Below, piece after piece: positions 2,146 to 28,477 of a stretch of 35,570 bases of DNA (position 1 is the first letter of the stretch; every line of letters starts with the position of its first letter). The stretch comes from a virus. A model generated the notes under the pieces. It was not told the DNA's origin and ran no database searches. It saw nothing but the letters and a program-made list of their open reading frames with translations. The translations under genes were made by a program, and so were the position numbers. The stretch covers positions 1 through 35,570 of IMG/VR virus record IMGVR_UViG_3300044635_000949; one strand, given 5' to 3'.

Positions 2146-5100
2146 ATGTCCAACACAGTAGTCGGTTTTACTATTTCGATTGATGGAATACAGTCAATAA
2201 ACCAGCTAAATGCTGAAATAAAAGCCACTAAAGAGGCAATGAACGCCCTTGATCAGTCAACTGAGCAGGGCAATAAAGAATTTCAAGACTTAAGCCAAAC
2301 GCTGGGACAATTAACGGCACAACAAAAGGCACTTAAAAAGGCTCAAGACGATGTAAATAAGTCATTTTTACCCGAAAAAGCGGTCGGAGCCTACGATGCT
2401 TTAGCGGCAAAGCTCAATAAATTACGCAAAGAGTTTAAAAATGCGGCTTTAGACGGCTCGAAAACGACTGAGGAGTTGGACAAAATGCAAAAAGAAATCC
2501 AACAACTTGACAAAACTTTAAAAAGTGTAGACGGTCAGGTCGGGCAGTTCCAAAGAAATGTCGGTAACTATCCTAAAACATTAGGCAGGCTCACAAGATC
2601 TTTAAATCAAACTATACCAGGATTTGAAGCTTTTTCAAGTCAATTAAGAAATAGTGAGGGGCAGTTAAGCGGTTTTGGTAAGGCTTTAATCGGTGGCTTT
2701 GTAGCTTTTCAGGGTGCAAAGTTGATCGGGCAGGCTATCCAAAAGCTCGACCAGTTTATTTCCAAAATTAACGAAACAAAAAACACGGTTGCTGAATTTT
2801 CTGGCGCTTACGATGAAGATCTTAACACGCTGACAGCATCGACAACGGCACTGGCTGAGACTTTTAATACAGATGCGAGGACAATATCTGCAGCGGCTCA
2901 GTCACTAAGTAAAAATTTAGGAATTAGCTTTGAGGAGGCGTTAAAAAAATTAGAGGGTACACTTGTCGAGGGGCGTGGCAATGCAGATGATTACCTTAAA
3001 ACAATAACGGAATATCCAGAAGCCTTTCAAAGTGCGAGCGGTGAGATTACAGAATTTTCCAAAAAAAATATGGATGCTGTAAATACCAATAGGGAGCTGG
3101 CATTGTCGCAAATTGAAACAGCCCAAAGAATTGAAAAATCGACTGGGGGTATTAGTAACTTTGGCAAACAGCTCGAGACTGGATTTTTTCTTGTTATTGC
3201 GGAAATAATAGATTTGTTTAAGCCTTTGACAGATAGCTTTAGCAGATTATCGACTTCATTTGGAAAGGTCTTCGAAAATTTAAAAATCGGTGGCGTTCAA
3301 TTTAATTTTTTGGGAGTTGCTGTAAAATTTTTATTAGGACCGCTTACAGCTATAGCGACTTTATTTCCAATTTTATTAAATGCCCTTGCGAGTTGGTATG
3401 ACATTGTAGGAAATGTGATAAAGCAAAGTCCTTTTTTACAATCAGTATTTACAAATGTAGGTGCTGTAATAAATTCTGTTATTGCTGTATTTAATGACCT
3501 GCCTAATGTTTTTGCTGGCGTTGTTTCGGCATTGCAGCAAGTTGGATTAAGTTTTGTTAATACCTTTCAATCTTTGTTTTTGGAGGCTCAAATATTTGCG
3601 GAACAAGTTAAAGGGGTTTTCGGTGCTAATGTTAAAAGCGCTATTGAGGATTTAAGAAAGCAGCAGGCGGAAATCGGAAAGGCAGGAATGACAATTGCGG
3701 AGGCATTCTCGAAAGGTTATAACGATGCAAAAAAAGCGGGGAACGTCGTACAAGTTGAGGAGGAGAAAAAGACAAAACAAAGACTTTTAAAAGTAGATGT
3801 TGAAGCATTAAAAAAACAGCAAGAGGCAGCGGCTGAGGGTGCAAAAAAACTTTCTGAGGATCGGAAAAAGTTTCAAGAGGACGAGGAGAAAAACGCAAAA
3901 CAAAGAGCAGCACTTTTATCTGATCTTAGCGCAAAAGCTATTGAGGAAAGAATTAAAAATATACAAGACGGTTACCAACGTGAACTGGCGGAAATAAATA
4001 ATAACTTTGACCAACAAAAGGCAGGGCTTCAAAAGCAGTATGACGATTTAGTTTTACAAGCTCAGCAACGGGAGAAAGAGTTAATCAAAACTTTTGGGGA
4101 TGGCTCAAAGGAAGTGATACAAGCGAGAAAGGACAACACTATACAGATTGAAGCGGTTGCAAAGGCTCAGGCTGAAATCCTTATTCAATACGAAATCCAA
4201 AAGAATAATGCAATCGACAAAGTCAATTCCGACGAAAATCAAAAGCAACTTGATAAAGCAAAAGAGCAGGCTGACAAATTAAAAGAATTGCGGGACTTCT
4301 TCCTAACTGAGGAAATAAAATTCATTCAGGAAAAAGGCGAAATGACCCAGCTCAAAAATCAGGAGAATTTAAATAAGGCTTTGGCTCAGGAGACGGATGC
4401 CAAAAAAGAGGAGCAGTTAATGAAACTTGCAAGCGAGCAGGAGACAATCGATAAAATTGCAAATATAAGAAATCAAATACAAGCTTTTAATGATGCGGAG
4501 GCTCAGCTCTTAGACGAAAACGGAAAGTTAAAGGTTGGAATTACTCAGGATGAATATGATAAAATCTTGTTAGCCAGACAGAAATTATTTACTGAGCTTT
4601 CAGCAGAGGAGCGAAAACAAACTGAGGACGTCGAGAAAAATGCAGCGGAACAGACAAAGATTAGACAAGATCAATTTGCGCAGGTTTTAGAATATTTTAA
4701 GGAGGGTATTGATTTAATCGGGGAGGCTTTTGCTGTTGCAAATGAAAGGCAGCAAGCCGCTTTTGATTCGGATATTGAGCGCAGTCAGCAAAGGCAAGAG
4801 AAATTGCAAGAGGAACTGGAAAATAGTACAGGCTTAAGACGAAGATTTTATCAAGAGCAGCTCGACAATGAAATAGCAAATCAAGCTAAACTTGAAAAGG
4901 CAAAAGAAGATGCAATTAAAAGAGCAGCTAAAAAGGAAAAAGCAATCGCAATAATTCAGTCGTTAATAAATACAGCTTTGGCAATTTCAAAAGCCAATAC
5001 ATTAGTGCCGCCTGCAAATATTCCAGCAATGATTGCAGCGGGTATAATCGGGGCAGCTCAAACGGCTTTAATAGCAGCACAGCCACTCGCAAAGGGTGGA

Positions 5101-6118: not shown

Positions 6119-6170
6119 TTTTTTGCTAAAATGTTTTTTTATTGAATAAGTAGTTCTATCTTTGTATCAA
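6119..6170 (+). promoter_or_regulatory. Promoter P1 (Bacteroidota type, one of three copies)
   Basis: The -7 box TATCTTTG is at 6157-6164 inside a 23-base core (6148-6170) that is identical at 17240-17262 and 23746-23768. A TTG at 6123-6125 lies about 31 bases upstream of the -7 box, at nearly the same spacing as in the other two copies. TAnnTTTG is the known -7 consensus of the Bacteroidota primary sigma factor. The core ends 45 bases before the first gene of the block. Confidence 0.8.
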
Positions 6171-6197
6171 CATACAACGAAAGGGAATTATTTAAAA

Positions 6198-6462: not shown

Positions 6463-6480
6463 TTAAACCTTATTACTATG
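6463..6480 (+). promoter_or_regulatory. Shared start leader, copy a (gene 6478)
   Basis: TTAAACCTTATT at 6463-6474 lies directly before the ATG at 6478-6480. It is one of six related leaders and is the exact complement, over 12 bases, of the candidate antisense RNA at 19882-19893. Confidence 0.6.
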
Positions 6481-6924
6481 TTTGCCTTCGCAGAAATCAC
6501 ACACCACTCGCTCGAAACTGGCTACACAAATCAATTACTTTTTGTTAAGGTTGTGGAGCTGACACACGAAAAGAGCCTCAATAAACGTGCTATTATTGAG
6601 TACACTTACAAAGGAGAAAATTTGCGGCACTTTATACCCAGAGAAAGGCTCATCGCTCCAAATATTGTACATAGCGAAGTTTTATTTTATCATTATGCAT
6701 CTGGCTTTGAGTATTGCGTAGAAGTTAGAGCAGATTTTTTCAAGCATCCAGACGAATGTTTTGTTAATATGACAACTAAACATTTGATAACTGAGCTTAA
6801 AGTCAACGGTCACAAAATGAATGATCCTGCAGGGGCTGCGGAGTATATGAATGCAGGTATGGACGAACTCGAAAGAAAAATATTAGCTAAGTTGGTCGAG
6901 TATGTCGATGAGCTTCCTTTCTAA
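6478..6924 (+). CDS. Unknown 148-aa protein in the P1 block
   Basis: This soluble-looking protein has a beta-rich first half and an acidic helical C-terminus (about residues 115-148). The start is fixed by the shared leader that ends at its ATG. It is the second gene after P1, separated from the first by a 64-base gap that contains the leader. I do not recognise the family and see no catalytic motif. The C-terminal pattern (MNAGMDELERKILAKLVEYV) suggests a helical interaction surface. Confidence 0.6.
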   Translation: MFAFAEITHHSLETGYTNQLLFVKVVELTHEKSLNKRAIIEYTYKGENLRHFIPRERLIAPNIVHSEVLFYHYASGFEYCVEVRADFFKHPDECFVNMTTKHLITELKVNGHKMNDPAGAAEYMNAGMDELERKILAKLVEYVDELPF

Positions 6925-6943
6925 ACACTTTTTATCATTTTTA

Positions 6944-6958
6944 AAACCTTATTTTATG
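6944..6958 (+). promoter_or_regulatory. Shared start leader, copy b (gene 6956), best antisense match
   Basis: AAACCTTATTTTATG runs from 6944 through the start codon at 6956-6958. Bases 6944-6959 are the perfect reverse complement of 19876-19891 (16 contiguous pairs), the longest match between any leader and the candidate antisense RNA. Confidence 0.65.
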
Positions 6959-7270
6959 AAAACTTTATTTTTTATTCTGGCGCTCTCAGTTAGCGCAATG
7001 GCTCAAAGCTCGGACACTTTGTACTGCATCCAGATAATGAGCACAAAGACACCTCAATATATTAGAGCCGAGCATCTAGCAATGTGTACGCTCGACAAAG
7101 CTATGGTTGAGCAGGTCGGGGATTATTATCGGATCTTGTTTGTTTACGAAACTGAAATGGAAGCTGACTATATGATCGCAACTTGGCAGAGGGCGCACAA
7201 AGACGCTTTTATCTGCAGACGTACGAAAGAGCAGGTTGCAAGCTTTTACCCTTTTATAACAAAGGATTGA
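6956..7270 (+). CDS. Exported SPOR-like small protein
   Basis: The 104-aa product begins with a clear signal peptide (MKTLFFILALSVSAMAQ, cleavage after AMA or AQ), so it is secreted to the periplasm. I chose the ATG at 6956, not an upstream in-frame ATG at 6902, because the shared leader ends exactly there and the signal peptide then starts at the N-terminus. The mature part (YCIQIMSTKTPQ, then YYRILFVYETEMEADYMI) resembles a SPOR peptidoglycan-binding fold, a weak visual match. It sits upstream of a membrane protein and a glucosaminidase, which fits a role at the cell wall in lysis or in superinfection control. Confidence 0.6.
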   Translation: MKTLFFILALSVSAMAQSSDTLYCIQIMSTKTPQYIRAEHLAMCTLDKAMVEQVGDYYRILFVYETEMEADYMIATWQRAHKDAFICRRTKEQVASFYPFITKD

Positions 7271-7731: not shown

Positions 7732-8250
7732 ATGAAAACAGCAATCTTAATTTTAACGGCGCTGCTATTATCTGCGGCAACCTTCCCAGCGCTAAAAAAA
7801 CAGCCTCCAAAAAATCACATTGAGCAATACATCGAAAGGTATTTAAAGACAGCGCAAACGGAAGCGAGGCTCTATAATATTCCAGTCAGTATAACTTTGG
7901 CTCAGGGAATAATCGAGAGCAACTGCGGACGATCAAGTTTAGCCAGAAAGCACAATAATCATTTTGGTGTGAAATGGCATAAAGGCAGAAAGGAAAAGTA
8001 TGCAGTTTACAAAGACGACACTCCGAAAGATAGGTTTGTTGTGTACCGTTCCGCTTGGTGGTCTTATCGGGACCATTCCAGACTGTTAACGTCAAGGCAT
8101 TACAGACACCTGACAAAGCTCAAAAGGACTGATTATAAAAGTTGGGCACGAGGTTTGAAAAAGTGCGGATATGCAACGCACCCAAAATATGCCGAAATTT
8201 TAATCTCAGTAATTGAAAAAAATAAGCTTTGGCGCTATGATCTGAAATAA
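7732..8250 (+). CDS. Glucosaminidase (GH73/FlgJ-like) exported wall hydrolase
   Basis: The 172-aa product starts with a signal peptide (residues 1-20, ILILTALLLSAATFPA). The rest matches the mannosyl-glycoprotein endo-beta-N-acetylglucosaminidase fold: SITLAQGIIES with the likely catalytic Glu62, then NNHFGVKWH, a VYRSAWWSYRDHSRLL segment, YKSWARGLKKCGYAT and YAEILI. Such enzymes cut the glycan strand of peptidoglycan. It is the last gene of the P1 block and is followed by an intrinsic terminator. It is likely the main export-type endolysin, reaching the wall through its own signal peptide. Virion-associated use is less likely because of the signal peptide. Confidence 0.88.
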   Translation: MKTAILILTALLLSAATFPALKKQPPKNHIEQYIERYLKTAQTEARLYNIPVSITLAQGIIESNCGRSSLARKHNNHFGVKWHKGRKEKYAVYKDDTPKDRFVVYRSAWWSYRDHSRLLTSRHYRHLTKLKRTDYKSWARGLKKCGYATHPKYAEILISVIEKNKLWRYDLK

Positions 8251-17214: not shown

Positions 17215-17262
17215 TTGTCAAAAGCTTTTTTATTCAAATAAGTAGTTCTATCTTTGTATCAA
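17215..17262 (+). promoter_or_regulatory. Promoter P2 (early region)
   Basis: The -7 box TATCTTTG is at 17249-17256 within the 23-base core (17240-17262) shared with P1 and P3. TTG at 17215-17217 lies 31 bases before it. A short palindrome AAAAGCTTTT at 17219-17228 lies between the two and could be an operator, though it is simple sequence. The 171-base gap from 17137 holds this promoter and the next leader; I see no hairpin terminator in it. Confidence 0.82.
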
Positions 17263-17291: not shown

Positions 17292-17310
17292 TTAAACCTT
17301 TATTATTATG
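17292..17310 (+). promoter_or_regulatory. Shared start leader, copy c (gene 17308)
   Basis: TTAAACCTT at 17292-17300 followed by TATTATTATG. It keeps 9 contiguous bases complementary to the candidate antisense RNA, with a gap before the start codon. Confidence 0.5.
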
Positions 17311-17607
17311 AAAACTTTAAAAATTTATCACAGACTTATTTGGGGATGCGCTTATACTCAAAACGAGGTCGCAACTGCAATTCTTAACTTATTTATTGCA
17401 TTGGCAGAAAATGACGAACAAAGCATTAGGTCAATTATTGAGCTTTATGAAATTACTCACACCGAATTATTGCAAATTCAGGAACTTACTGGAAAGGCAA
17501 TTAAAAAAGTAACTCCAAAATTAAAAAACGAGGACAGATATTCGCTCGAGAAAATAGATCGTATTATTGACGATGAAAATCAAATGTTTTACGATAGAGG
17601 TTATTAA
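17308..17607 (+). CDS. Unknown early protein (99 aa)
   Basis: The product is helical and soluble, with an acidic C-terminus (DEDRY-like and IIDDENQMF stretches). It is the first gene after P2; the shared leader fixes its ATG at 17308. Immediate-early position suggests host takeover or regulation, but no domain is recognised. A short 5-6 pair hairpin (17613-17618/17627-17632) follows without an adjacent T-run. Confidence 0.6.
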   Translation: MKTLKIYHRLIWGCAYTQNEVATAILNLFIALAENDEQSIRSIIELYEITHTELLQIQELTGKAIKKVTPKLKNEDRYSLEKIDRIIDDENQMFYDRGY

Positions 17608-17656: not shown

Positions 17657-17672
17657 AAACCTTATTTTTATG
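17657..17672 (+). promoter_or_regulatory. Shared start leader, copy d (gene 17670)
   Basis: AAACCTTATTTTTATG at 17657-17672 includes the start codon. It is identical to copy e at 23989-24004 and pairs with 19877-19891 over 15 bases with one bulged base. Confidence 0.62.
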
Positions 17673-18233
17673 AACTACAAACAAACTGAAAACATTGCAG
17701 AGCTCATCCTCGCAATGGTTAACTTTAACTTAGAGTTTCAGACTACTAAGCTCATTAAGGACGGCAAAAACGAGCATCTCAGAAACAAATATCTGACTTT
17801 GGATAATATCCTCAATACAGTTCGCCCGATCCTCACAAAGCACGGTTTAGTGATTGTGCAGGCATTGGCTGGCGATTATCTTGTTACAACAATATACCAC
17901 GTCTCAGGGCAATATATCCAGACTGATATGCCATTTCATCCAATGTCTGGAAATAAGGGCACTAATGCCCTGCAGGAACTCGGTGGAGGCATTACTTACG
18001 CCAAGCGCTATGCTATTAGTGCAATGCTGGGAATTTCAGTTGATGCTGACGACGATGGGCAAAGCTCTAAAATCAAGCCTCAGGAACTTAAAGCTAAGAA
18101 GAAAGTAAATACTATTGACGAGCTTCAAAAGTTGCTGGGATGGCTTATAAATAACCCAGAGAAGCAAGATACCTACTTAGATTTATTTGAGCTTACAAAG
18201 GAACAAAAACAATTCATCGAAAATAATCTATAA
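17670..18233 (+). CDS. ERF-family single-strand annealing protein
   Basis: The 187-aa product matches the ERF family of recombination proteins: YLTLDNILNTVRPILTKHGL at about residues 40-60, then a beta region, and the ALQELGGGITYAKRYAIS signature at about 105-122 with MLGISVDADDDGQ after it. ERF proteins anneal complementary single strands in recombination and in genome circularisation. The C-terminal 40 residues are a less conserved Lys-rich tail. It lies in the early operon with a DnaC-like loader and a RuvC-like nuclease, and the phage SSB is encoded apart at 30670. The shared leader fixes the start. Confidence 0.9.
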   Translation: MNYKQTENIAELILAMVNFNLEFQTTKLIKDGKNEHLRNKYLTLDNILNTVRPILTKHGLVIVQALAGDYLVTTIYHVSGQYIQTDMPFHPMSGNKGTNALQELGGGITYAKRYAISAMLGISVDADDDGQSSKIKPQELKAKKKVNTIDELQKLLGWLINNPEKQDTYLDLFELTKEQKQFIENNL

Positions 18234-18925: not shown

Positions 18926-18969
18926 TTTTTAATCACTTTTTAATCACTTTTTAATCACTTTTTAATCAC
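18926..18969. repeat. Four perfect 11-base tandem repeats before gene 18978
   Basis: TTTTTAATCAC occurs four times in a row (18926-18936, 18937-18947, 18948-18958, 18959-18969) and ends nine bases before the ATG at 18978. The same unit occurs singly just before gene 24002 (about 23975-23986) and near 25796-25806. The 11-base period is close to one DNA turn. It may be an expanded leader element, a protein-binding array or a slippage product. Confidence 0.92.
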
Positions 18970-18977
18970 TTATTTTT

Positions 18978-19811: not shown

Positions 19812-19822
19812 AAAATTATTTC

Positions 19823-19830
19823 TATATTTG
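19823..19830 (+). promoter_or_regulatory. -7 box TATATTTG before the 19.85 kb RNA
   Basis: TATATTTG fits the Bacteroidota -7 consensus; transcription would begin near 19837, just before the first RNA stem. No good TTG is visible at the right distance upstream, so the promoter is tentative. Confidence 0.45.
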
Positions 19831-19836
19831 CGTATA

Positions 19837-19948
19837 GAATTTACGTTTGAGTAGCAGCGAACCTAAATTCGACAGTCATAAAATAAGGTTTAACCCGATT
19901 TAATCAAAGGCAACTGCTACTGCTGGAGATTATCTCGGGTTTTTTTTG
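19837..19948 (+). ncRNA. Candidate structured antisense RNA upstream of the replication gene
   Basis: The 153-base gap before gene 19965 has no credible ORF on the + strand but contains ordered structure. Stem A pairs 19850-19857 with 19914-19921 (8 pairs). Inside it AACCT at 19860-19864 can pair with AGGTT at 19886-19890. Stem B pairs 19892-19898 with 19935-19941 (7 pairs) and crosses stem A, so a pseudoknot is possible; it is followed by eight T. Bases 19876-19893 are complementary to the shared start leaders, including AUG. It could be a trans-acting antisense RNA, a cis attenuator of the replication gene, or both. Confidence 0.5.
19892..19948 (+). terminator. Long-loop terminator-like stem B
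   Basis: AACCCGA (19892-19898) pairs with TCGGGTT (19935-19941), followed by T-rich 19940-19947. The 36-base loop is long for an intrinsic terminator and contains the 3' half of stem A, so termination may depend on which stems form. Confidence 0.5.
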
Positions 19949-19964
19949 TTTTTAACATATCAAA

Positions 19965-20957
19965 ATGAATGTATTAAAAATGATAGGCTCAACTGCTTTC
20001 CTTATGGCAAACAAGGAAATTATAAGATTGACGGACATTGAAACTGCAATTTTATATTCAGATCTCGCAGGCGCTCAGGATTACTGGAGCGAAAAAAACG
20101 AAATTCAAGACGGCTATTTTTATAGAACTCAAAACGAGATTGAGCTTAATACAACTCTTTCTGCAAAGGTTCAATTAAGATGTTTGCGACTACTGGAGGA
20201 CAAAGGATTGATTAAAACTAAGCTTAAAGGATTGCCAGCTAAGAAATATTTTTGCATTGATAACGAATGTATCTATAGACTTTCTCAGGTTCTACAAAAG
20301 GGAGAAACTTGTATAGCTGAAAAGGATAATCAAGTTAATCAAAAAAGTACAAACAAGTCTGGCGAAAATGTAGAAACAAGTTTAGAGATTTTGGACAATC
20401 AAGTTTCTACAAAAGTGCTAATAAATAATAATAGAGTTAATAATAATAAAGAAGTAATAATAGATTATAATAATAAAGAGAAAAGCGATTTTTCTTTTTC
20501 TGAAAATACCGAACAACTTATTTCCTTAAATGATAAAAAAGAACTCGAAAAGGTAAATAGTGCGAATTTCGTAAATGACAAACAAAGCGAGCCAGCTGAA
20601 AGCGCAAAGTATTTTTTTGAGGTTACTCAGGTTTTGGCATTACTTACAGATCGCAGCGGAGTTAAATTTGTAATTCCAAAGACAAGATTAGGAATAGAAA
20701 AATACGAACCTTACAAGCTAATTAAAGAGCGAATATCGGACGGAGCAAAAGTTGAGGATATAATTGCAATTGTCGAAATGAAAAATAAAGAATGGCAAGG
20801 AACTGAAATTTATAAAAACTTTGTACCCTCAACTCTTTTTAGAAAATCAAACTTTGAAAAATACCTGCAGCAACTACAGATAAAACACAAAACAAACACA
20901 AACACAAATCCAGATAATGGCTACACGCCAAAACCTCTAACTTACAAAATTTTCTAA
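19965..20957 (+). CDS. Replication initiator, DnaD/replisome-organiser-like
   Basis: The 330-aa product has an N-terminal winged-helix part (about residues 15-100: IRLTDIETAILYSDL, TTLSAKVQLRCLRLLEDKGL), a long polar Asn/Lys linker (about 105-215) and a C-terminal domain with VEMKNKEWQG and YKNFVPSTLFRKSNFEKYL. That C-terminal pattern is that of the Phg_2220_C family of phage replisome organisers. The wHTH part would bind origin DNA and the C-terminal part would help load helicase. It lies directly upstream of the DnaC-like gene, as in many siphoviruses, and behind a structured leader. Confidence 0.82.
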   Translation: MNVLKMIGSTAFLMANKEIIRLTDIETAILYSDLAGAQDYWSEKNEIQDGYFYRTQNEIELNTTLSAKVQLRCLRLLEDKGLIKTKLKGLPAKKYFCIDNECIYRLSQVLQKGETCIAEKDNQVNQKSTNKSGENVETSLEILDNQVSTKVLINNNRVNNNKEVIIDYNNKEKSDFSFSENTEQLISLNDKKELEKVNSANFVNDKQSEPAESAKYFFEVTQVLALLTDRSGVKFVIPKTRLGIEKYEPYKLIKERISDGAKVEDIIAIVEMKNKEWQGTEIYKNFVPSTLFRKSNFEKYLQQLQIKHKTNTNTNPDNGYTPKPLTYKIF

Positions 20958-23720: not shown

Positions 23721-23768
23721 TTTGGTAAAAGAGTAAAAATTTAAAAAGTAGTTCTATCTTTGTATCAA
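23721..23768 (+). promoter_or_regulatory. Promoter P3
   Basis: -7 box TATCTTTG at 23755-23762 inside the same 23-base core as P1 and P2 (23746-23768). TTTG at 23721-23724 lies 30 bases upstream. The sequence around it (23688-23745) is A/T tracts only. It drives the Gp157 and methyltransferase block. Confidence 0.82.
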
Positions 23769-23800: not shown

Positions 23801-23816
23801 AAACCTTATCATTATG
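23801..23816 (+). promoter_or_regulatory. Shared start leader, copy f (gene 23814)
   Basis: AAACCTTAT at 23801-23809, then CATT, then ATGACT at 23814-23819. Both blocks match the complement of 19874-19891, separated by a short unpaired part. Confidence 0.5.
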
Positions 23817-23978
23817 ACTACTTTAAAAACTTTTACAGCTTGGACTCGCAAAGCAAACACAAACGATCAATTTTGCACTCAGTACATCAAAGCCAAAAAC
23901 ATAAAGGAAGCAAAAGCCTTAATTATTGCAGAGGGCAGAGAAATCGAAAAAGGAACAAAAATTAATTTATACGCTTAA
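23814..23978 (+). CDS. Small early protein (54 aa)
   Basis: The shared leader fixes the start at ATG 23814; an upstream in-frame ATG at 23760 lies in the promoter itself and is rejected. The product is basic, with KAKNIKEAKALIIAEGREIEKG, which looks like a small beta-alpha-beta unit. First gene after P3, so probably early. Function unknown. Confidence 0.6.
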   Translation: MTTLKTFTAWTRKANTNDQFCTQYIKAKNIKEAKALIIAEGREIEKGTKINLYA

Positions 23979-23988
23979 TCACTTTTTA

Positions 23989-24004
23989 AAACCTTATTTT
24001 TATG
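23989..24004 (+). promoter_or_regulatory. Shared start leader, copy e (gene 24002)
   Basis: AAACCTTATTTTTATG, identical to copy d, ending with the start codon at 24002-24004. It is preceded by one copy of the TTAATCACTTTTT element found in tandem at 18926-18969. Confidence 0.62.
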
Positions 24005-24481
24005 AAAAACCTATTTAATATCGATGCTGAACTTTATGAAGTTTACAGCCAAATTGAAAACAACGGAGGCGAGATGACTCCAGAGCTGGAAGCAGCACTC
24101 GAAATTTCCGAGTCTGAGCGACTTACTAAGGGCGAGGGCTATGTTTATGTCATTAAGCAATTAAAGTCGCAGGCGGAGCTAATTAAAAGCGAAATAAAGC
24201 GCTTGCAGGATCTGGCTAAACGCTATGAAAACTCAGCCGACAAATTAGCGGACAGACTACTCGAGTCAGTTGTTGCCCACGGTCAAATTAAAACGGCTTT
24301 TGTGACAATATCGAGCCGCAAAAGTAAGTCAGTAAGCATCACGGATGAAAGTTTGTTAGGAGCTGAATTTTTGCGTATTAAGACAGAGCCAAACAAGACA
24401 GCTATTAAGGAAGCACTCGAGAGCGGTCAGGAAGTGCAAGGAGCTTTGATAGTAGAAAATTACTCGCTCAATATTCGATAA
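24002..24481 (+). CDS. Siphovirus Gp157-family protein
   Basis: The 159-aa product fits the Gp157 family in length and order: an acidic N-terminus, a long coiled coil at about residues 50-95 (YVIKQLKSQAELIKSEIKRL, then LAKRYENSADKLADRLLES), and a beta-rich end (IKTAFVTISSRKSKSVSI, then LRIKTEPNKTAIKEALESG). The family is known from Streptococcus phages, where it was linked to phage resistance; its molecular role is unclear. The gene is often near recombination genes. Its shared leader fixes the start. Confidence 0.85.
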   Translation: MKNLFNIDAELYEVYSQIENNGGEMTPELEAALEISESERLTKGEGYVYVIKQLKSQAELIKSEIKRLQDLAKRYENSADKLADRLLESVVAHGQIKTAFVTISSRKSKSVSITDESLLGAEFLRIKTEPNKTAIKEALESGQEVQGALIVENYSLNIR

Positions 24482-24522: not shown

Positions 24523-25764
24523 ATGATAAAAGTAGGATCAGACTTTAGCGGAGTAGGTGCATTCAATCAAGCGCTTAACAGACTCGGCATTGAGTATAAG
24601 GAAATATTTGCTTGCGATATGGATAAATACGCTCGGCAAACATTTGTGCATAATTACGGAGAACCTAAGTATTACCCGACCAACGTTTACGAGCGTGAAA
24701 TACCAAAAGAAAGTTTGGACATTTATATGACCTCTCCTCCCTGCCAAGCTTTCAGTCTTGCCGGGAAGCGATTAGGTAAAAATGACAAAAGAGGTATTTT
24801 GTTTTTTAATAGTTTAGAATTTATAGAAAAGAATAAACCTCGTTTTTTTATTTTTGAAAATGTGAAAGGTTTATTATCTGATGATGGCGGTAGAACTTTT
24901 TCTGAATGGGTTAATTTTTTAGGCGGCAAATCTGTTAACGGTGCGCCTGTTTTATTTCCTTATGCCGATTCAGTTCCTTATCACTTGTATTGGAAAGTAT
25001 TAAACGCAAAGCATTACGGAGTGCCACAAAACCGAGAGCGTGTTTTTTTAATTGGCATTAGGGATGACAAAGATAATAATTTTAGCTTCCCGGCTGAGGA
25101 GCATTTAACAAAGCGTTTAAAAGATGTATTAGAGGAAGATGTAGATAAAAAGTATTTTTTAAGTGAGAAAGGAATAGAACATATTTTAGCTAAAGAAGGT
25201 GTTTATACAGGAATAAATGAAGACCCTACAAGATGTTTAACAACAAGATACTCAGCAAGTTTAGCTGGAACATTTATTCAAATAAAATCTGCAACCTCGA
25301 AAGGTTATGAAGAAGCAACAGAGGGAGATTTAATAAATTTTAGCGTACCGAACTCCGAAACAAGGCGAGGTAGAGTTGGCAAAGGTGTGGCACAGACTTT
25401 AGATACGCAATGTAATCAGGGTGTGATGGTTATTGCATTCGGTCGCTCAGAAGAAGAAAAAAAAAGGCGCAAAGAACATTTTAAAAAGACTGGTTTAGAT
25501 ACAGGAAGTTTTAAAGACAAAGAACTTATAATTAAAAATCAAGATTATTTTGATACTTTATTGGCTAATCCTAATCCGCAAAAGGAAGGATTGATTGCAG
25601 ATAACTACAAAATCCGCCGCTTAACCCCTCGAGAGTGCTTCCGACTTATGGATTTTCCCGATACTTTTACTTGGATTTGCTCAGATAGTCAAGCATACAA
25701 ACAAGCAGGGAATAGTATTGTAGTTAACGTACTTTATAAAATATTAAAAAATCTTAGTCTATAA
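24523..25764 (+). CDS. DNA (cytosine-5) methyltransferase 1
   Basis: The 413-aa product has the ordered C5-methyltransferase motifs: I FSGVGAFNQAL at about 8-18, IV SPPCQAFS with catalytic Cys74, VI FENVKG with Glu112, VIII QNRERVFLIG at about 174-183, and X QAGNSIVVNVL near the end. Between VIII and X lies a long target-recognition region (about 190-365). It methylates cytosine in DNA, most likely to protect phage DNA from host restriction; no restriction enzyme gene is next to it. The gene is AT-richer than its neighbours and is bounded by twin hairpins, as for a cassette acquired later. Confidence 0.95.
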   Translation: MIKVGSDFSGVGAFNQALNRLGIEYKEIFACDMDKYARQTFVHNYGEPKYYPTNVYEREIPKESLDIYMTSPPCQAFSLAGKRLGKNDKRGILFFNSLEFIEKNKPRFFIFENVKGLLSDDGGRTFSEWVNFLGGKSVNGAPVLFPYADSVPYHLYWKVLNAKHYGVPQNRERVFLIGIRDDKDNNFSFPAEEHLTKRLKDVLEEDVDKKYFLSEKGIEHILAKEGVYTGINEDPTRCLTTRYSASLAGTFIQIKSATSKGYEEATEGDLINFSVPNSETRRGRVGKGVAQTLDTQCNQGVMVIAFGRSEEEKKRRKEHFKKTGLDTGSFKDKELIIKNQDYFDTLLANPNPQKEGLIADNYKIRRLTPRECFRLMDFPDTFTWICSDSQAYKQAGNSIVVNVLYKILKNLSL

Positions 25765-26875: not shown

Positions 26876-27465
26876 AAATAGAACTGATCAAGTCGCAAAA
26901 TATAGCGCTTACAAAGCTCGAAATAAACAAGGGGCAAATCGAAGGGCTGCCAAAAAATCCACGCTTAATAAAAGACTCAAAGTTTGAAAAGCTCAAAAAG
27001 TCTATCGAGGACAATCCCGAAATGCTTGGAATGCGCGAAGTCTTAGTCTATCCGCACGGCTCAAAGTTTGTTATCATTGGCGGCAATATGCGCTTTCAAG
27101 CCTGCAAAGATTTAGGCTTTACGGAAGTTCCTTGCAAAGTACTCGAGAAAGATACGACAGCGGAGCAGCTCAGAGCAATAACGATTAAAGATAATGTCGG
27201 TTTTGGTGAGCACGACTGGGAACTATTGGCGAATGAATGGGACAGCGTGGAACTGGAAGAGTGGGGAATAGAATTGCCTGTTCAATACAATTCAGATATT
27301 GACTATTCAGATAAAAACGAGGAGATTGATATTGATGCTTTGGACTCAGATATGATAATAAAGCTAAAATATACAGAGGACGAATATCATTTAGTAAGGG
27401 AGCAGCTAAGTAAAATAGCAGCAACACCGGAACAAGCAGTCTGGAAATTATTAGGCAATGAGTAA
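26872..27465 (+). CDS. ParB/sulfiredoxin-like phage protein
   Basis: The 197-aa product has a ParB N-terminal-like domain: LPKNPRLIKDSKFEKLKKSI at about residues 26-45, then VLVYPHGSKFVIIGGNMRFQ with the GGNMRFQAC signature, and AEQLRAITIKDNVGFGEHDW. Such proteins are often encoded next to phage DNA methyltransferases and may help target them or bind DNA. The end (about 145-197) is an acidic helical tail. It overlaps the following methyltransferase gene by 8 bases, so the two are probably made together. Confidence 0.85.
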   Translation: MKIELIKSQNIALTKLEINKGQIEGLPKNPRLIKDSKFEKLKKSIEDNPEMLGMREVLVYPHGSKFVIIGGNMRFQACKDLGFTEVPCKVLEKDTTAEQLRAITIKDNVGFGEHDWELLANEWDSVELEEWGIELPVQYNSDIDYSDKNEEIDIDALDSDMIIKLKYTEDEYHLVREQLSKIAATPEQAVWKLLGNE

Positions 27466-28477
27466 ACATAGATTTCCATATAAGTGGTATTTAAAAGACG
27501 GCTATCCTGAAAAAAACGGATTAAAAGTTTTCGGTACTTTTATTTGTGGTGGAGGCTCAACTATGGGCTATAAATTAGCAGGATTTGAGCATATTGGTGG
27601 CGTTGAAATAGACCCAGAGGTTGCGGACGTTTATAAAACAAATCACGAGCCAAAACATTTATTTGTAGAGGATATTCGAGAATTTGCAAAAAGAACAGAG
27701 TTTCCAGAGGATTTATACAACCTTGATATTTTAGACGGCTCACCTCCTTGCTCTTCATTTAGTATGGCAGGGAATAGGGAAAAAGACTGGGGAAAAACTA
27801 AGGTATTTAGAGAGGGTCAGGCAGAGCAAAGATTAGATGATTTGTTTTTTGATTACATAGCACTTGCAAAAAAATTGCAGCCTAAAGTTGTAATTGCTGA
27901 AAATGTCAAAGGTTTAATACAAGGCAATGCAAAATCTTATGTACATAGAATAAAAAAGGAATTTGAAGCGGCTGGATATAAAGTTCAATTGTTTTTGCTT
28001 AATGCTGCGAGTATGGGAGTTCCTCAAAAGAGAGAAAGGGTATTTTTTATCTGTCAAAGAAAAGATTTAAATTTACCTAAATTAGAATTAAAGTTTAATG
28101 AAGAGGCAATAGTTTATAAACAATATCAAGAGCAAAATAATATAAATGATTTAACTGATGTTCAATTTAATTTATGGAAAAAACAAAAACCAACTGATAA
28201 AACTTTGGCAGATATAAGAAATGCGGCAAATGGATTTACAGATTATTTATTAAATGAAAATGAAGTAATACCAACTATAACAAGCGGTGGTAAATTTTTA
28301 TTAAAAAACCAACCTCGATGGATGAATAAAAATGAATTTTGTCAAAGCGGTAGCTATCCTATTGATTATGATTTTAAACAAATAGAGCCACAATATTTAA
28401 TCGGAATGAGTGTTCCTCCAGTTATGACAGCGCAGATAGCAACTGAAATTTATAACCAATGGTTTAAAAAATTATAA
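27458..28477 (+). CDS. DNA (cytosine-5) methyltransferase 2, variant motif IV
   Basis: The 339-aa product has motif I FGTFICGGGSTMGYKLAGF at about 25-43, IV DGSPPCSSFSMAG with Cys98, VI IAENVKG with Glu149, VIII VPQKRERVFFI, and X-like LIGMSVPPVMTAQIA. The usual PCQ is PCS and the usual GNSVP is GMSVP. These are deviations seen in a phage branch of the family, so activity is likely but specificity may differ. It forms a unit with the ParB-like gene. Together with methyltransferase 1 it would give two layers of cytosine modification. Codon use is AT-rich in the middle. Confidence 0.92.
   Translation: MSKHRFPYKWYLKDGYPEKNGLKVFGTFICGGGSTMGYKLAGFEHIGGVEIDPEVADVYKTNHEPKHLFVEDIREFAKRTEFPEDLYNLDILDGSPPCSSFSMAGNREKDWGKTKVFREGQAEQRLDDLFFDYIALAKKLQPKVVIAENVKGLIQGNAKSYVHRIKKEFEAAGYKVQLFLLNAASMGVPQKRERVFFICQRKDLNLPKLELKFNEEAIVYKQYQEQNNINDLTDVQFNLWKKQKPTDKTLADIRNAANGFTDYLLNENEVIPTITSGGKFLLKNQPRWMNKNEFCQSGSYPIDYDFKQIEPQYLIGMSVPPVMTAQIATEIYNQWFKKL

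Follow-up and report, generated by a model that had tools for sequence, protein, structure and literature searches.

A putative kissing-hairpin RNA gene of an uncultured phage and its complementarity to the start leaders of six genes

The packaging RNA (pRNA) of phage phi29 is a phage RNA of roughly the size of the one described here; its two complementary loops, set around a three-way junction, link one molecule to another by pairing. Phage lambda codes OOP, a small terminated RNA found beside gene O that pairs with a phage mRNA (PMC12197685). In the lactococcal phage c2, the untranslated transcript PE1-T is located near the start of replication, and its sequence diverges between phage groups while its role is kept (PMC7150918). 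The setting of the present study is the Bacteroidota, a phylum in which no Shine-Dalgarno pairing is used to initiate translation, structure at the start hinders initiation (PMC6847099), and phage gene control is little known.

The window, the whole stretch of DNA that was analysed, is a linear IMG/VR virus record of 35,570 bases from an uncultured phage with Bacteroidota-type signals. The searches made among cultivated phages and plasmids found no DNA-level resemblance to it, and scans of bacterial genomes with the helicase-loader and ERF proteins as queries yielded no relatives of the phage. Cultivated phages of Flavobacterium psychrophilum have a distant initiator gene; a convincing RNA was not found in them (E 0.44). 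Comparison of the window with Rfam 15 gave no family at the gathering threshold, the best match spanning the RNA being trpB (17.1 bits versus 59), and the kissing-hairpin RNAs of 13 relatives had no Rfam match. The open-access literature yielded no described Bacteroidota-phage RNA of this kind. The putative small RNA gene of this uncultured phage is previously unregistered and without an Rfam entry. Note that this small genome also carries two separate C5-cytosine DNA methylase genes (24523-25764 and 27458-28477), and that tandem copies of TTTTTAATCAC are found in the leader of gene 18978 (18940-18977).

Structure and conservation of the RNA at 19837-19948

The initial annotation had placed a candidate antisense segment at 19876-19893, within a gene-free, structured region featuring a -7 box and a T-run. 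Its description of the region stands: no listed ORF is found in 19812-19964, and the fold z of the window RNA is -3.1 to -3.4 (-1.3 to -7.4 over 27 family members). The complementarity at the segment is exact, but the real extent of the feature is larger, a structured RNA spanning 19837-19948. All its elements lie on the + strand. The -7 promoter box TATATTTG (19823-19830), positioned 6 nt 5' of hairpin 1, fits the sigma-ABfr consensus of Bacteroidota, stated as TANNTTTG (PMC6847099), and the same box is found upstream of the RNA in most relatives. Folding delimits hairpin 1 to 19837-19870, with an 8-nt apical loop AGTAGCAG at 19850-19857; the hairpin is kept in relatives while its loop sequence is altered. 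It is followed by a predicted single-stranded linker of 21 nt, GACAGUCAUAAAAUAAGGUUU (19871-19891), which is antisense to start leaders and places CAU opposite AUG. Hairpin 2 (19892-19948), with a bulged stem AACCCGA...TCGGGTT, an 8-nt loop and a T-run, forms an intrinsic terminator that is likewise kept in relatives. Promoter signal, covarying structure and terminator signal, which all point to the non-coding RNA gene proposed earlier, were found. We infer that 19837-19948 is transcribed from a promoter of its own into a phage RNA of ~110 nt that ends at the intrinsic terminator. According to these sequence signals the RNA has its own promoter and terminator, 2-14 kb from its putative targets.

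A feature overlooked in the initial annotation is that the two 8-nt loops are complementary to each other. The segment AGTAGCAG at 19850-19857 can pair with CTGCTACT at 19914-19921 over 7-8 bp, which defines kissing loop 1 (AGUAGCAG) and kissing loop 2 (CUGCUACU), respectively, both on the + strand. Relatives were found by queries with the initiator, Gp157 and ERF proteins and by the terminator pattern, and the kissing-hairpin RNA is found in ~20 other contigs of uncultured phages. A detector that looks for two hairpins with loops complementary over at least 7 bp and positioned 5' of a T-run gave no hit in any of 12 shuffled genomes. Covariation at homologous loci, a check put forward with the original proposal, was analysed in 12 distinct 7-bp loop pairs (84 cells). 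All 84 cells are paired, one of them being G-U, versus 70.5% in shuffles. Two-sided changes are found at six of the seven loop-loop positions, and the covariation score of 0.812 (0.173 in shuffles) is reached by none of 500 shuffles. Shifting the register destroys the loop-loop pairing. These data argue strongly that the kissing-hairpin RNA is a structured RNA family.

Complementarity of the linker to start leaders

The reverse complement of 19877-19893 is exactly the leader motif TTAAACCTTATTTTATG. Each of the six leaders named in the initial annotation is present and matches this motif, with ATG codons at 6478, 6956, 17308, 17670, 23814 and 24002. All are on the + strand. In the first block, the leader at 6463-6480 (-14.5 kcal/mol) precedes gene 6478-6924, whose 148-aa product has no assigned function, while the one at 6944-6959 (-19.0 kcal/mol) pairs over 16 contiguous bases including AUG, as had been claimed, and precedes gene 6956-7270. 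The latter codes a 104-aa protein with a signal-peptide-like amino terminus; it sits within a longer formal ORF (6902-7270), and its 104-aa form is conserved in relatives. In the second block, the leader at 17292-17310 (-12.8 kcal/mol) belongs to gene 17308-17607 (99 aa, no assigned function) and that at 17657-17672 (-15.7 kcal/mol) to gene 17670-18233, coding an ERF single-stranded DNA-annealing protein (Pfam/PHROG). In the third, pairing at 23801-23819 (-17.8 kcal/mol) runs on into AUGACU of gene 23814-23978 (54 aa), and the leader at 23989-24004 (-15.2 kcal/mol) precedes gene 24002-24481, whose product is Sipho_Gp157/Mu Gam-like (Pfam/PHROG).

Three tests show that this match exceeds chance. 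Six start windows lie at or below -12 kcal/mol, whereas 100 shuffled linkers gave 0.6 such windows on average and never more than 3. The mean energy of the best six, taken over all start windows, is -14.8 kcal/mol versus a shuffle average of -9.9, and the linker surpasses all 100 shuffles on this measure. In a genome-wide control covering 35,547 positions of 23 nt per strand, with both strands scanned, the linker spot is the single place complementary over at least 11 contiguous bases to at least four start leaders. The same holds at 12 bases. The excess is confined to long matches, because other AT-rich places are just as good when 9-10 bases are required. Five of the seven best + strand sites fall at starts, which represent ~8% of that strand.

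The six genes had been described as early. This is right in part, but the 6.2-8.3 kb block also has an endolysin gene (7732-8250), whose orthologue carries the leader in two relatives. A promoter core AGTAGTTCTATCTTTGTATCAA is common to the three blocks with leader genes (6149-6171, 17241-17262 and 23747-23768), and the likeness among these promoters extends far past the -7 consensus, which supports that they form one regulon.

Nine linkers, those of the window, G001, G003, G004, G005a, G007, G008, G009 and G011, form a set hereafter called type A in which the AUAAGG core is kept. In 9/9 type-A phages the own leaders are matched by the own linker; in eight of these phages 0/100 shuffled linkers do as well as the own linker, and in one phage 1/100 does. 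ACCTTA leaders are found in all nine, versus none of three near relatives with other linkers. The shared type-A leader ...AAACCTTATTTTTATG heads unrelated genes (ERF, Gp157, endolysin and small unknowns), and because non-homologous genes share it the leader is best understood as a regulon element rather than as an inherited gene flank. Larger contigs with the leader and without the RNA are fragments lacking the whole replication region (ERF, helicase-loader).

G002, G006 and G010, which have another linker, have a different shared leader CACTTCAAAACACTTCAAACAATG and no ACCTTA leaders. This second start leader is positioned 5' of several genes in contigs L037 and L035 (G002, G010). No antisense to CTTCAAA, the leader type of these phages, was found in G002 or G010, and among RNAs with other linkers (G002, G006, G010, G005b and L133-L146) the own leaders are not complementary. 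Preservation of the complementarity among relatives, which the initial annotation expected, is seen in the nine close phages and is absent where the linker differs.

Linker type thus goes with leader type, though the lineages that show this are few, and since the type-A phages are all close relatives the association reflects few independent events. The pairing core varies little, and the leaders of each type-A phage can be paired by every type-A linker; because the linkers are interchangeable in this way, linker and leader show no clean compensatory change within type A. The GGTAT linker variant (G005a, G007, G009) has lost one pair. The leader complementarity, as read from these genomes, is a trait of a clade rather than of the family at large. 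Given that same-fold relatives with other linkers miss their own leaders, antisense pairing cannot be the sole or ancestral function of the RNA, nor is the fold selected for leader pairing.

Genomic context and alternative roles

The RNA is usually found just 5' of a replication-initiator gene. In the window, the O-like replication-initiation gene (19965-20957, + strand) begins ~19 nt past the modelled RNA end. The gap is 3-20 nt in most phages, and no separate promoter or -7 box was seen between terminator and initiator gene. Since no -7 box parts the two, control by read-through is a live rival: promoter, hairpin, linker and terminator would make up, for the O-like gene, a 5' leader that acts in cis as an attenuator; its termination would depend on a protein or on how the kissing complex folds, and read-through would express the initiator. 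The short RNA would then be a by-product and the leader match secondary. The structure is kept across phages while gene and linker sequences vary, as would be expected of such an element. On the other hand, a different gene lies directly 3' of the terminator in G005, G008, G009, L139 and L141; the gene may be small and unrelated, or else it is HNH-like (L139) or GIY-YIG-like (L141), the last two as judged by eye from their sequence. G005 carries two tandem kissing-hairpin RNAs (L034, 3572-3683 and 3962-4076), the linker of one matching leaders and that of the other not; the tandem pair, too, speaks against an attenuator. Kissing is moreover expected to stabilise the terminator rather than to relieve it, and the unique antisense match is left unexplained. 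We consider attenuation a serious possibility that falls somewhat short of probable.

Three observations concern the vicinity of the RNA. The amino-terminal part of the initiator gene (19965-20400 in the window, and in relatives) is swapped between phages directly 3' of the RNA, which may thus act as a recombination joint. In G001, an extra promoter-hairpin-terminator unit without clear loop-loop pairing (L004, ~1714-1830, promoter at 1714) is found 5' of the kissing RNA, and the linker of this second RNA has no target leader. The stretch GGGTGCTCT(T/C)GGT..CCAA..CTTAATTCGACTCGAA is conserved 5' of hairpin 1 in two phages (L004 ~1875-1940, L035 ~4960-5013); it is perhaps an extra hairpin or the remnant of a duplicated RNA.

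The position of the RNA in relatives, flanked by the ERF gene region and by an initiator-like gene of variable amino terminus, also brings to mind an origin transcript in which RNA or template would mark or prime a replication origin beside the initiator gene, as for PE1-T. The c2 precedent (PMC7150918) and the conservation of structure while sequence changes freely are consistent with this. GC skew, in itself uninformative on autonomous replication, shows no switch at the RNA site, however, and priming needs no strong terminator directly before the initiator, so that this role is unlikely for the window RNA.

Alternatively, a gene leader could have been copied in inverted orientation into a structured RNA, giving a linker without regulatory function. 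In most type-A phages the reverse strand does read leader, ATG and a short ORF, and the related phages are few and close. The mini-ORF, which the initial annotation offered as its own alternative, is nevertheless not kept, being absent in G001 and drifting in sequence elsewhere, while complementarity is kept in 9/9 type-A phages despite changed flanking linker bases and kissing loops; we hold this explanation to be quite improbable. Intermolecular loop pairing, which would yield oligomers as it does for the packaging RNA of phi29, is very unlikely: complementary loops of 7-8 nt are able to dimerise and the covariation is equal for intra- and intermolecular pairing, but the RNA is found in the replication module and not in the packaging module, each RNA has its own terminator, and a three-way junction is absent.

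Proposed function and relation to known phage RNAs

The reading that we favour, with modest confidence, is that the kissing-hairpin RNA exposes its linker as a multi-target start-codon antisense, most likely blocking translation initiation. The 7-8 bp loop-loop contact would hold the two hairpins together and present the 21-nt linker unpaired. The linker, CAUAAAAUAAGGUUU, would then pair with the shared leader AAACCTTATTTTTATG and cover about six start codons, those of recombination, Gp157, lysis-block and small unknown genes, most likely blocking initiation and possibly leading to mRNA decay. The RNA thus probably controls the leader-bearing genes by base-pairing. We infer from sequence that it is transcribed, acts in trans and represses rather than activates; repression is the natural guess because initiation in Bacteroidota does not rely on Shine-Dalgarno pairing and structure at the start impedes it, and covering an unstructured start region is plausible in mRNAs that have no Shine-Dalgarno sites. 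If true, one RNA would control a set of unrelated phage genes via their start codons.

In our reading the locus belongs to a new family of phage RNAs, and one clade seemingly co-opted the linker as an antisense to multiple start codons. The kissing fold must have at least one other role, because it is more widespread than the antisense linker. This further role most likely lies at the adjacent replication operon, by attenuation, or at an origin, and cis-attenuation and an origin transcript are serious rivals for the ancestral role. That a widespread, undescribed Bacteroidota-phage family would be a programmable scaffold, constant in its fold and loop-loop lock, with the linker rewritten in each lineage toward the phage's own start-codon leader or toward host mRNAs, is a tentative and rather doubtful extension; if true, genes that share a leader would form a regulon under one RNA master switch, in hosts whose initiation does not use Shine-Dalgarno sites. 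Apart from any antisense role, a covarying RNA beside a replication gene is a directly testable family without an Rfam entry.

Lambda OOP RNA and c2 PE1-T are the nearest parallels, with demonstrated membership in neither. OOP and the window RNA are both small, terminated and found beside an O or O-like replication gene, but the likeness in mechanism is partial: OOP acts in cis as an antisense to a single target, cII, whereas the window RNA is coded on the coding strand, has a kissing fold and matches about six unlinked leaders. Like PE1-T, the window RNA, known here from its sequence, is near a phage replication gene; PE1-T comes from a different host and is not described as antisense in PMC7150918. 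The window RNA, with two simple hairpins in the replication module, falls outside the pRNA type of phi29. As an intergenic RNA with short imperfect matches to mRNA starts, the window RNA would work like the trans-encoded phage sRNAs that act on mRNAs, both those of the work cited in PMC12197685 and the c4 RNA of P1/P7. It belongs to a phage of another host phylum and has no sequence relation to them, and it differs from them in that its linker is held between two predicted kissing hairpins.
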